20,956 bases of DNA, taken from IMG/VR virus record IMGVR_UViG_3300005581_000171, positions 1-20,956 of that record, one strand, 5' to 3'. Under the pieces are notes generated by a model. It was not told the DNA's origin. It searched no databases and saw only the letters and a program-made list of their open reading frames with translations. The stretch's first letter is position 1; each line of letters begins with the position of its first letter. Source of the DNA: a virus. A program made the translations under genes and the position numbers. Shown piece by piece: positions 1,051 through 9,839 of this stretch.

Positions 1051-1866
1051 TTAAAACATAACAGGTTCGCACGACTCAGCGATGCGACGGCGTATATCGA
1101 CGCCGAGCACTGAGTCACCGAACCGAGCCTCGAAGTCAGCGCCGCCGTAGCGCGTCGTGATCACCATCGGTCGCCGGTTAGCGTACCTCGAGTCGATCAA
1201 CTCCCAAAGCAGCGCAGCCACGGATGCGGTCAACTTCTCCTTGCCGAGATCATCAATGAGCAGGACGCGGCAATGAGTCAGATGCTTAATGGACTTAATG
1301 TCCCGCGCAGCCTCGCTGAGTTGGCGCTGTAGCTCAACGGCAGTCAGGAAGGTGCAGCCGTACTCGCGGCGCTCAAGCTCGCGTGCAAGCGCCCACATTG
1401 CCGTCGTCTTGCCAGCGCCAGACAGCCCAGTGATGACCAAGCCCTTGCCTGTCTGAGGCGGGACGTACTGCGTGACACGGTCGTAGCCTTTGCGACGCAC
1501 CGTGTCCGGCACGTTATCGACCAACTCCTTGTAGAGCGCCGGGCAGTTCTCATCCCACCAAGGCGTGCGCGACGTCACTTGCTGTTCCTGCACCGTGCGC
1601 GAATAGTGCGCGTCGCGAATAGGCGTGCAGTCGTCGCAGCAGCCGTAAACAAACACGGTCTCGACGCCCAAGATCTCGAACACGCCGCGTGAGATCGGCA
1701 AACGATTACCGCAGATCTTGCAGTGACCCTCCGCCCAGGTTGCGGATCCGTCGCCCCACTTACGCGCAAGACGGCGCTCCATGTCGCTTCGGAACTCTGG
1801 CTTCGGCTCAATGCTGATGCCCACGGCGTCGTAGACAGCAAGTGCCTCGTAGTCGGTGTGGCTCAT
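1051..1866 (-). CDS. dnaC: DnaC/IstB-like AAA+ helicase loader
   Basis: A 271-residue ATPase that by family would load the replicative helicase at the origin. The ATG at 1866 is chosen because GGGAGG lies 9 bases upstream and it follows the initiator stop by 2 bases. An upstream in-frame start at 1890 would overlap that gene. The N-terminal part has a probable zinc site (C49-x2-C52 and C76/C77-x2-C80). The AAA+ core has Walker A GLSGAGKTT (147-155), Walker B VLLIDDLGKE (201-210), sensor-like VITTRYG (235-241) and the Arg-rich box RRRIAES (259-265) typical of DnaC and DnaA relatives. The length fits phage DnaC-like proteins. No replicative helicase is visible in the window, so it probably uses the host DnaB or one encoded elsewhere. 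Confidence 0.9.
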   Translation of the reverse strand: MSHTDYEALAVYDAVGISIEPKPEFRSDMERRLARKWGDGSATWAEGHCKICGNRLPISRGVFEILGVETVFVYGCCDDCTPIRDAHYSRTVQEQQVTSRTPWWDENCPALYKELVDNVPDTVRRKGYDRVTQYVPPQTGKGLVITGLSGAGKTTAMWALARELERREYGCTFLTAVELQRQLSEAARDIKSIKHLTHCRVLLIDDLGKEKLTASVAALLWELIDSRYANRRPMVITTRYGGADFEARFGDSVLGVDIRRRIAESCEPVMF

Positions 1867-1868
1867 GG

Positions 1869-2672
1869 TCAAAAGCCTCCCTTTTCCCAAGCAAACTGAC
1901 CGCCGGCGGCTGCGCGTTCGCGTGCGACCTGATCACCGCCCGTCGTTGCCCTTGGCTTGGCAGCAGCGCAGACAGCCCAGTGCTTCGACAACGCCGTCGG
2001 AGTCAGCGCAGCGCCGTCGAAGTGCGTTCGGTAGTTCGCAGCCCGGCGGCGCACCTCATCAGGCGTTACGTCGGGACTGACGACGACAATCTCGGCGCGA
2101 GCAGCGATGGCTGGTCCCCATTGCGTGACCTCCTCTGGCTTACCGCCTCCGACCGTTGCCAGCGCATCGAGCAGCTCATTGCGTGCGCGCGGCGCGCCGA
2201 CAGGCGCATAGGATTGATTATCCTTCCTATTCCTTTTCCCTTCCTTTTCTTTTCTTTTCTTTTCGTTGCGGCACTCCTCGAAGGACTCCTTCAAGGACTC
2301 CTTCGCGCTATGGTCAAGGACTGCTTCAACCTTAGGCGCAACTCTCGACCTAGCAGAGCTTAAACCACCCTTGCGGCCTCCCTCGCGTTTAGCTTCAAGG
2401 ACAGTTTGCGCAGAGGACGGATAGGACCAGACAACCAAGTCATCGCCTTGCCAAGCAAGCAGCGGTGCAGCACCGTTAACCTCAGCCAGTGTCACTCCGC
2501 AGAGCTGCTGCCATTGCCGGTCCTTCCAAGCCTTCGCACCAGCGAGCGTGCCGCCGTTTTCTTGGTCGGCACAGTAAGCGAGTACGCAGAACCAGGTCGC
2601 CCGTGCCACAGGATCGCAGCCTAAGAATTCAGGTGCGCGTATGTTCGGAATGTAAATATTGAGCCAGTTCAT
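1869..2672 (-). CDS. Phage replication initiator (DnaD / lambda O-like)
   Basis: A 267-residue protein starting at the ATG at 2672, whose ATGA overlaps the previous stop (2669). The frame extends upstream to 2792 but that part is a shadow. The N-terminus (MNWLNIYIPNIRAPEFLGC, then DPVARATWFCVLAYCADQENGG) is the winged-helix opening seen in phage replisome organisers. Residues 93-104 carry AKREGGRKGGLS. A very basic linker (about 128-152, KKRKEKEGKRNRK) follows, and the C-terminal part has VRRRAANYRTHFDG and LTPTALSKHWA, also usual in such initiators. The dnaC-like loader follows directly, as in O/P-type modules. The linker DNA carries origin-like repeats, listed separately. Confidence 0.8.
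   Translation of the reverse strand: MNWLNIYIPNIRAPEFLGCDPVARATWFCVLAYCADQENGGTLAGAKAWKDRQWQQLCGVTLAEVNGAAPLLAWQGDDLVVWSYPSSAQTVLEAKREGGRKGGLSSARSRVAPKVEAVLDHSAKESLKESFEECRNEKKRKEKEGKRNRKDNQSYAPVGAPRARNELLDALATVGGGKPEEVTQWGPAIAARAEIVVVSPDVTPDEVRRRAANYRTHFDGAALTPTALSKHWAVCAAAKPRATTGGDQVARERAAAGGQFAWEKGGF
2221..2327. other. Candidate replication origin inside the initiator gene
   Basis: On the plus strand, AAGGACTCCTTC occurs twice in tandem (2281-2292, 2293-2304), with a one-mismatch third copy AAGGACTGCTTC at 2316-2327. The core AAGGA-C-TCCTT is a perfect palindrome. A partial copy TTCAAGGAC lies at 2394-2402. About 16 bases away is an uninterrupted 35-base pyrimidine tract (2230-2264) that includes four tandem TTTTC units (2245-2264). 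Repeats next to a strand-biased A/T-rich tract within an initiator gene match the layout of lambdoid origins in gene O. The repeats also encode KESLKESF and a basic run, so a purely coding explanation is possible. Confidence 0.5.
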
Positions 2673-7320: not shown

Positions 7321-7489
7321 TGCGTTCAATTATCCGAGAAAGAAGTTCGCTGGGTTGTACGGCTTGCTTGGCGGCTTGCCAGCGCAGTCGCTCGATGAGG
7401 CGCGGCGACACGCGCCACGGAATCATGACCTTCGGTCCGCTCTGGGATGGACGCCGACCGATGCCGTTGCGCTTCAAATCGGTTTTCAT
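7304..7489 (-). CDS. 61-residue ribbon-helix-helix-like protein
   Basis: The ATG at 7489 overlaps the methyltransferase stop as ATGA. A longer in-frame start at 7672 lies wholly within the methyltransferase and is rejected. After a basic N-terminus (MKTDLKRNGIGRRPSQS), the strand KVMIPWRVSP and helices LIERLRWQAAKQAV and SELLSRIIERN fit a ribbon-helix-helix DNA-binding domain. It is followed by a second, different protein of the same fold type. The pair could repress phage promoters or each other. Toxin-antitoxin function is not supported, as no toxin is visible nearby. Confidence 0.7.
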   Translation of the reverse strand: MKTDLKRNGIGRRPSQSGPKVMIPWRVSPRLIERLRWQAAKQAVQPSELLSRIIERNAPPV

Positions 7490-8475
7490 TCGAACTGTAG
7501 CTCGTTCGTTTTTTGATCTCGCGCAATCGACGATAGATTTCGCACGGCTTGCCGGTAGTAGCTTGACTTTAGCTCGACGCCGACGCCCTTGCGTCCGTTT
7601 AGCACGGCGCCGTAAACCTCGGAGCCAACGCCCATGAAAGGCGTGAACACAATCTCGCCGGGATTCGACCATAGGACAACGGCTCGCTCGATGACGTCAA
7701 GTTGCAGCGGATGCACGTGCCGCTCGTCGTCCTTGTCGCGGCTCTCCTCATAGGCGAGCACGTTCTCGATGCGGATGTCGTCCCATACGCACGAGGCGTA
7801 CTGCCGCCAAATCCAATGCGAGAACCGGTTCTCGGTCTGTTTGCCGTCGTGCCCCTTCCACTCGAGCAGCTCGCGCGGCATCTGCCGCTCGCCAGCGTAG
7901 GAGTGCAGCCCGGTAGGATGCGCCACCGGCACAGGATTTTCTCCCTTCTTGCGAAAGCACAGGAGGTAATCGCCTCCGGCCACGTCGCAGAGCGTCGAGT
8001 CCTCGACAATCTGCGCGTGCGCCAGCCCCTTCGCCATCGTCCGCAGGCGAACGCCGAGCGGCTCCTTCCAAATTACGCGGCGCATACAGAATTGAAACCC
8101 GTGCTTTTCGTGCGCGCGGATAATATCGCCAGGAAAATCTATCAGTCCCGAGCCTACGTTCGCAGCGACGCCCATCTTGGCGGTCGGCCCGTTGCCGGTG
8201 CCAGCCACGTCCATACAATGCACAGCGGTAATCCGGCCAGGCTTGGTGAGTCGCGCGATCTCCGAGATCACGAAGTCGTAGTGCTCGAAGAACTCCGAGT
8301 AGGAGCGGCAGTTCGAAAGATCGCGCTCACTGCTGCTGTAGTTGTAAAGCCCGCAGAACGGAGGCGAGTAAACGGATAGGTCAATCGCTCCGTCTGGCAT
8401 CGCACGCATTACGTCGATGCAATCGGAGTTGTAGAGTGCGAATCGGTCGGTGATGTGTTGCTTGTCGTTGTTCAT
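7486..8475 (-). CDS. Beta-class DNA methyltransferase (probably N4-cytosine or N6-adenine)
   Basis: A 329-residue methyltransferase. The ATG at 8475 overlaps the helicase stop as ATGA; a TTG two codons earlier is less likely. The catalytic motif IV VYSPPFCG (SPPF at 37-40) comes first and the AdoMet-binding motif I FMGVGSE (280-286) near the C-terminus, which is the beta-class order. SPP-type catalytic motifs are usual for N4-cytosine enzymes, though some adenine enzymes use them. PGDIIRAHEKHGF, VIWKEPLG and RELLEWKGHDGKQ fit known phage and restriction-type enzymes. No cognate endonuclease is seen, so it looks like an orphan enzyme protecting or marking phage DNA. It is translationally coupled to the helicase. 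Confidence 0.88.
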   Translation of the reverse strand: MNNDKQHITDRFALYNSDCIDVMRAMPDGAIDLSVYSPPFCGLYNYSSSERDLSNCRSYSEFFEHYDFVISEIARLTKPGRITAVHCMDVAGTGNGPTAKMGVAANVGSGLIDFPGDIIRAHEKHGFQFCMRRVIWKEPLGVRLRTMAKGLAHAQIVEDSTLCDVAGGDYLLCFRKKGENPVPVAHPTGLHSYAGERQMPRELLEWKGHDGKQTENRFSHWIWRQYASCVWDDIRIENVLAYEESRDKDDERHVHPLQLDVIERAVVLWSNPGEIVFTPFMGVGSEVYGAVLNGRKGVGVELKSSYYRQAVRNLSSIARDQKTNELQFE

Positions 8476-9839
8476 AGCCAAGAGGGGAAAGCGGGTTTGA
8501 AGGCAACGTGTTTGGCGCCTTCGATGCGGAGTTCGTCGTTGATGAGTGCGACCAGATGCTTAAACATCGCGTCGGCTTGGTCCGCCTTGCGTTGAAGATT
8601 CGAGACGACGCCAGATTCACCCTCAGAGGCGACGACATCGATGACCACTTCGCGCTTTTGTCCGAAGCGCCAACAGCGACGAACGGCTTGGTACCATTGC
8701 TCGAACGAGTGCGACGGGAAGAAGGTCTGATGGGCGCAATGCTGCCAATTGAGCCCAAAGCCCGCGATCTGCGGCTTGGTGATCAGCACGCGCAATTCGC
8801 CATTAGCAAACGCCTCGAAGGTCTCCTCCTTCTTGTCGTCCTCATCGTCGCCAGACACCTCGGCTGCGTCTCGAATGAGCTTCGATAGCGTCTTCCCCTC
8901 GTCGTTGAGATGGCACCATACAACGGCAGGCTTGCCGGTATTGCTAACCAGATTCGCGACTAGTTCGCACCGCTCCGTCAGCGTGCGGCGCCGCTCCTCT
9001 CGTTGCTCGGCCAGCGTCATTGCAGGCAGATCAAACAGCATCCCGTCGCGATGGCTCCGCGCAACCACGACGTGCTCGCGCGTGGTAAGTTTCGGCAACT
9101 TGAACGGGCCATCATCGCAGCCCATATCGCTCGGCCTCCGAACTGCCCGCGCCCACGAGCAAACCCAGCGCCAGAACTCCTTCTCGGCGTGACCGCGGAA
9201 GCGCCAGACTCCGGCGCGGTGCTCGTCAGACCTCGACGTGGTCGGTCCCTGCTTCTTGAAGAAGCGGCCAAGCATATCCGAAAAACCCATCTCGCCTAGC
9301 GCCTCGCTCGACGTGCCGAGCTCGATGTAATCGTTGGGCGCTGCGGTCGCGGTGCAGAGCAGGCGGTAGGGAATCTTACGCGCGAAGTCCGTCACCGCGG
9401 ACTTTGTCATCCCGTCGAAGTTCTTGAGAATCGACGACTCGTCGCAGACCACGCCCGCAAATTGCGTTCGGTCGAAATGGTGCAGGCGTTGGTAGTTCGT
9501 GACCACGACGCGCGCGCCGGGCGGGAACTTGCCGTCAGAGGACCGCACGCAATCAATGCCAAACTTCTCGCCCTCCTCCACGGCCTGACGCGCAACAGCC
9601 AGCGGAGTAAGCACCAGCACAGGACGGTTTGTGTGGCGCACTACGTTTTCGGCAAAGCTCAACTGCATCGCGGTCTTGCCTAGTCCGCAGTCTGCAAAGA
9701 TCGCCGAGCGTCCTCGCTCAACCGACCACGAGACAAGCGCCCGTTGAAAGTCAAAAAGCTTGGAAGGCATGAACGTCGGCTCAAAGCCATGCCGCGCGCC
9801 GACGTGTCGTTTGGCGTCTAAAAAGGTCTCGTAGTTCAC
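8472..9839 (-). CDS. SNF2/DEAD-like superfamily 2 helicase
   Basis: A 455-residue ATPase with a GTG start at 9839 overlapping the lysozyme stop as GTGA. The superfamily 2 motifs are in order: Q-like FDFQRALVSW (29-38), Walker A ADCGLGKTAM (49-58), Ia LTPLAV (77-82), Ib TNYQRL (114-119), II DESS (133-136), III CTATAAPND (162-170), V GFGLNWQHC (360-368) and VI QAVRRCWRFGQKR (384-396). The last is the SNF2-type arginine-finger motif. The N-terminal MNYETFLDAKRH fits related phage helicases. It would translocate on DNA with ATP. Its overlap with the methyltransferase gene suggests they work together, perhaps exposing or remodelling DNA for modification. Confidence 0.88.
   Translation of the reverse strand: MNYETFLDAKRHVGARHGFEPTFMPSKLFDFQRALVSWSVERGRSAIFADCGLGKTAMQLSFAENVVRHTNRPVLVLTPLAVARQAVEEGEKFGIDCVRSSDGKFPPGARVVVTNYQRLHHFDRTQFAGVVCDESSILKNFDGMTKSAVTDFARKIPYRLLCTATAAPNDYIELGTSSEALGEMGFSDMLGRFFKKQGPTTSRSDEHRAGVWRFRGHAEKEFWRWVCSWARAVRRPSDMGCDDGPFKLPKLTTREHVVVARSHRDGMLFDLPAMTLAEQREERRRTLTERCELVANLVSNTGKPAVVWCHLNDEGKTLSKLIRDAAEVSGDDEDDKKEETFEAFANGELRVLITKPQIAGFGLNWQHCAHQTFFPSHSFEQWYQAVRRCWRFGQKREVVIDVVASEGESGVVSNLQRKADQADAMFKHLVALINDELRIEGAKHVAFKPAFPSWL

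Follow-up and report, generated by a model that had tools for sequence, protein, structure and literature searches.

The stretch of DNA analysed here (the window) spans the whole of a virus record, 20,956 bases, which is possibly a fragment. Two neighbouring genes on its minus strand are considered:

1869–2672, minus strand: putative replication initiator gene, an open reading frame with its translation (267 codons plus stop; 267 residues), with homologues on about 80 viral contigs
1051–1866, minus strand: DnaC-like (DnaC/IstB-like) helicase loader gene, directly downstream of the initiator gene (PF01695, E = 8e-17; phrog_50, DnaC-like helicase loader, E = 6e-22)

The second gene agrees with the first-pass annotation, which had a dnaC-like loader following the initiator. 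Further genes of replication and recombination type are found upstream, coding for a single-strand-binding-like protein, a Holliday junction resolvase and an exonuclease VIII-like protein. On the same strand, at 7486–9839 of the window, genes for a DNA methylase (PF01555) and a SNF2-type helicase lie side by side. The 267-residue protein gave no Pfam, NCBIfam or significant PHROG match (a marginal PHROG match only), and profile searches found no replication family among 49 members of its family. Its role as an initiator is one that we infer.

A model of the protein was built by AlphaFold2 with 49 relatives. It divides the gene as follows:

2373–2672, minus strand: residues 1–100, predicted winged-helix-like DNA-binding domain (pLDDT 92–97 across most of residues 11–80)
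2190–2333, minus strand: residues 114–161, predicted disordered linker (pLDDT below 50), whose coding DNA holds the repeats and the purine tract
1872–2189, minus strand: residues 162–267, predicted C-terminal helical domain

The elements predicted for the N-terminal domain are, in order, helices at 21–37, 51–58 and 62–66, strands at 72–75 and 78–81, and a long helix at 86–111; we read this order as a winged helix. When the model was searched with Foldseek, 14 viral models were obtained at E ≤ 0.001 (E 3e-5 to 9e-4, probability 1.00), of the phage DUF1376/replisome-organizer kind. The TM-scores were low (0.2–0.4 over the whole model), probably on account of the flexible linker, and the sequence profile of the DUF1376/replisome-organizer family did not match the protein. 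No fold match was found in the PDB at E ≤ 0.001, and the sequence search likewise gave nothing useful.

The DNA features of this gene are listed below. As the gene lies on the minus strand, the repeat unit reads GAAGGAGTCCTT and the tract is purine-rich in gene orientation.

2395–2407, minus strand: weak half copy of the repeat, TCAAGGACAGTTT
2316–2326, minus strand: repeat 1 in gene order, AAGCAGTCCTT, in a frame different from that of repeats 2 and 3
2293–2303, minus strand: repeat 2, AAGGAGTCCTT, a perfect palindrome about a single central base
2281–2291, minus strand: repeat 3, AAGGAGTCCTT, 12 bp from repeat 2
2269–2279, minus strand: degenerate further 12-bp unit, GAGGAGTGCCG, adjoining the tract and partly covered by a 2.7-copy array at 2273–2304
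2221–2264, minus strand: A-rich polypurine tract, the proposed DNA-unwinding element (pyrimidines on the plus strand; strictly of one class at 2230–2264)
2181–2273, minus strand: codons 134–164, a block conserved at synonymous sites in four close phages

The two tandem repeats and the near copy that had been noticed at first sight are real: AAGGACTCCTTC occurs at 2281–2292 and 2293–2304, and a copy with one mismatch, AAGGACTGCTTC, spans 2316–2327. With up to two mismatches the unit was matched eight times in the window, where 1.08 matches were expected and shuffles always gave fewer than eight; two of the eight are sites already counted, read on the opposite strand. All four rows returned by Tandem Repeats Finder for the window fall at 2222–2304, with arrays nowhere else; they include CTTTT × 4.2 at 2244–2264 and a 12-bp unit × 2.7 at 2273–2304. 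The best repeat score of the linker was at lag 12, which few synonymous recodings matched (p = 0.004), and the copies lie in two reading frames. The degenerate unit beside the tract is kept as AGGAGTGCC in the relatives L001 and L003. A half copy reported at 2394 is present at 2395–2407; it is weak and absent from L003 and L004, while L001 has a full AAGCTCAGCTT near that place, and the half copy is probably nonfunctional. Single-strand folding of the repeat region was stronger than that of shuffles (z = −4.65), a value that we set aside because palindromic repeats alone would produce it.

Relatives were collected by a scan of viral contigs (80 loci), a scan of genomes (two) and a search of a phage collection (three Akkermansia phages). 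Dereplication left a comparison set of 54 linkers. The usual order in these is a conserved N-terminal domain, then tandem repeats of 11 or 12 bp, then a purine tract that is A-rich on the coding strand. In 39 of 53 linkers the repeat score exceeded that of synonymous recodings of the same peptide (p ≤ 0.05), the best lags being mostly 11, 12, 22 or 24; in the other 14, among them that of the close relative L003, the excess was not significant. Some relatives, L003 included, have degenerate repeats. A second family search mostly found the same contigs again, and the seven new distinct linkers that it yielded all have class A or class B sites, as defined below, ahead of the tract.

Two layouts could be told apart. 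Class A, AACCCAAGC, consists of plain direct repeats at 11-bp spacing, which occupy two or three reading frames per gene in all 17 phages that have it; such frame-cycling repeats are an unusually clean example of one stretch of DNA serving as code and control site. Class B (AAGSNNNSCTT, mostly 12 bp) comprises 18 linkers including that of the window, and keeps mostly to one frame per gene, the frame differing between phages. The first-pass annotation had described the core of the repeat as a palindrome, as for a dimeric initiator. This holds in the window, where the linker has three perfect 5+1+5 palindromes, while a random choice of synonymous codons for the same peptide would give 0.36 (three or more arise in 0.5% of recodings). 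It does not extend to the family, since class A repeats are not palindromic and palindromes exceed the synonymous null in only 4 of the 18 class B linkers; palindromy as a family rule was therefore rejected, and the repeats do not imply that every member has a dimeric initiator.

The start of the tract is marked by a junction, AACGRAAR, found in 32 of 53 linkers and in all three frames, as against eight occurrences in the 33.8 kb elsewhere in these genes. Together, the 11–12-bp repeats, this junction and the purine tract form a signature that could locate origins in uncultured phages. It may be noted that the Akkermansia phages L084, L085 and L087 carry the homologue as a hypothetical or unannotated protein, with repeats of CCAACG type in L084 and L085. 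In L085 the repeat ACCAACGTTGG recurs at a distance of 25 bp, so that its copies fall in two reading frames.

Conservation at synonymous sites was compared in the window, L001, L003 and L004. Among codons for the same amino acid, synonymous variation affected 1 of 27 within codons 134–164 and 103 of 176 outside them (Fisher p = 2e-8); as the motif classes and tract limits were set after the sequences had been seen and the relatives are not independent, this and the other p-values serve as guides only. In close relatives, synonymous differences were seen in 3 of 36 codon comparisons for the repeats and 0 of 66 for the initial portion of the tract; most other parts of the gene gave 16–53%. This comparison had been proposed as a check on the repeats, and it shows them kept beyond amino-acid constraint; what is conserved is the DNA rather than the peptide. 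The conserved block also runs beyond the purine tract, over 2181–2220, into GC-rich sequence (GGCGCGCC).

Codon choice in the tracts differs from that outside for Arg (AGR, 84/98 vs. 85/811), Gly (GGR, 126/140 vs. 251/712), Ile (ATA, 28/31 vs. 50/505) and Asn (AAT, 38/40 vs. 125/477). Part of this bias is expected, the test being partly circular because the tracts were selected as purine-rich; such selection leaves unexplained why the synonymous sites hardly vary. These results bear on whether the region is an ordinary low-complexity linker, in which charged residues and peptide repeats made by slippage would yield repeat-like, purine-rich DNA as a by-product. The linker is indeed predicted to be disordered and is rich in Lys, Glu and Arg, and certain class B repeats, being 12-mers that stay in frame, give peptide repeats. 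Nevertheless, each 11-bp copy shifts the frame, such repeats are rare under synonymous recoding, and frozen synonymous sites together with a tract codon choice unlike that of the rest of the gene are not what a by-product would give. We regard this explanation as very unlikely.

The pyrimidine-only run of 35 nt that had been reported is present, at 2230–2264; single-class runs in the rest of the window reach 14 nt at most, and those in 200 shuffles 22 nt. The tract (2221–2264) has a GC content of 0.34 against 0.59 for the gene, being A+T-rich and strand-asymmetric beside the repeats, and the least stable 50-mer of the window, ranked first of 20,906, is 2213–2262. Among the relatives, no purine or pyrimidine segment of the locus outranked the tract in 51 of 53. 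The tract was among the five least stable stretches of its own gene in 45 of 53, a rank that it kept in only 22 of 53 when the whole locus was considered. GC skew, which the first-pass annotation had named as a check, lent the origin no support: it was uninformative in the window, and in two Akkermansia phages, Chantilly and Chambord, the cumulative skew had no extremum at the gene.

Since AAGGA-like strings occur in the tract, it might instead be read as an RNA or translation signal, at which ribosomes would bind internally to make a separate C-terminal protein. An in-frame ATG lies 3–15 nt beyond the tract in only 1 of 54 genes, and any in-frame ATG, GTG or TTG in 9 of 54; moreover, the repeats would be left unexplained. 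Such a signal is extremely improbable.

Taking the repeats, the tract, the conservation of DNA over peptide and the gene neighbourhood with the predicted two-domain protein and its disordered linker, we conclude that the region of about 2181–2330 is very probably a phage replication origin, set within the linker-coding part of the initiator gene in the intragenic manner of lambda and SPP1. For its firing we infer the following course. The N-terminal helix-turn-helix domain would bind the repeats of about 12 bp (AAGSNNNSCTT), and several bound copies would strain the DNA so that the adjoining A-rich polypurine tract opens. The C-terminal domain would then recruit the helicase, to be delivered by the DnaC-like loader from the neighbouring gene. 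On this reading a phage protein family that has no name, and that occurs in Akkermansia phages and on many viral contigs from the environment, gains a likely function. In the open-access literature we recognised no paper on this family; precedents were found in lambda and SPP1.

In lambda, gene O contains iterons, which are imperfect inverted repeats of 19 bp, and an AT-rich region (PMC7466680), and nearly all bases on one strand of the A+T-rich region of ori are purines (PMC5043065). The present locus resembles it in that the origin lies mid-gene in the initiator, with repeated sites beside an A+T-rich, strand-biased region and a helicase-loading gene next (PMC7466680, PMC5043065). The lambda O/ori likeness drawn by the first-pass annotation thus stands as regards intragenic repeats beside a strand-biased tract. 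It fails as regards the units, which are here tandem and of 11–12 bp (about 12 bp in the window) instead of 19-bp inverted repeats, and palindromic in the window and not in class A. The 267-residue protein, moreover, lacks a Pfam match, and the loader is DnaC/IstB-like. No homology to lambda O was found by Pfam for the window protein or by family profiles for the 49 members. Given this and the shorter repeats, we do not file the element as a lambda-type member despite its like anatomy.

The account of SPP1 (PMC6316719) places direct repeats and an AT-rich unwinding element of oriL inside the initiator gene, 38, and describes the replisome organizer gp38, the loader gp39 and the helicase gp40 as one system. 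Here too a loader or helicase gene adjoins the putative initiator gene. The likeness is one of anatomy. SPP1 has a second origin, oriR, and the passages on oriL drawn on here mention no purine tract biased to one strand (PMC6316719).

Plasmid iterons usually lie outside the rep gene. Like the present locus, iteron plasmid origins have short repeats in arrays that keep phase with the helical repeat and adjoin an A+T-rich region; they differ in that plasmid iterons bind monomers (PMC5043065).

At 20 loci sampled, the next gene coded for a DnaC-like loader in six, a DnaB-like helicase in five, a primase/helicase in one and a DNA helicase in one (13 of 20); the others were unrelated or unmatched. 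A DnaB-like helicase gene is also next in two Akkermansia phages. L009 and L024 are alike in N-terminal domain and repeats and differ in their C-terminal parts, the next gene being a loader gene in one and a DnaB-like helicase gene in the other, which suggests an exchange at the purine tract. Such a boundary is what would be expected if the region were a hot spot for exchange of gene modules; equally, the initiator might bind it as an operator for autoregulation or as a partition or packaging site, as our tests reveal selection on the DNA and not what it serves. That the repeats adjoin a purine tract and the lowest duplex stability, that helicase or loader genes lie next door and that lambda and SPP1 offer precedents all suit an origin, while an operator needs none of this. 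We consider an element of this other kind improbable and prefer the replication origin.

The origin layout itself may be exchangeable. It is possible, though we lean against it, that a near-unchanged DNA-binding domain serves both layouts, the 11-bp direct repeats of class A and the palindromes of about 12 bp of class B, each layout being swapped with its linker. As AAGC is common to the two, the domain may recognise a half-site that they share, with the geometry of assembly perhaps dictated by the linker that is swapped. Pairs of this kind make the specificity of initiator for origin testable. On a tree of the domain, in which many forks are weak and columns few, the class changes about 15 times. 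L051 (class B) and L077 (class A) are identical at 89 of their first 100 residues, and L053 and L061, whose repeat classes also differ, at 83.
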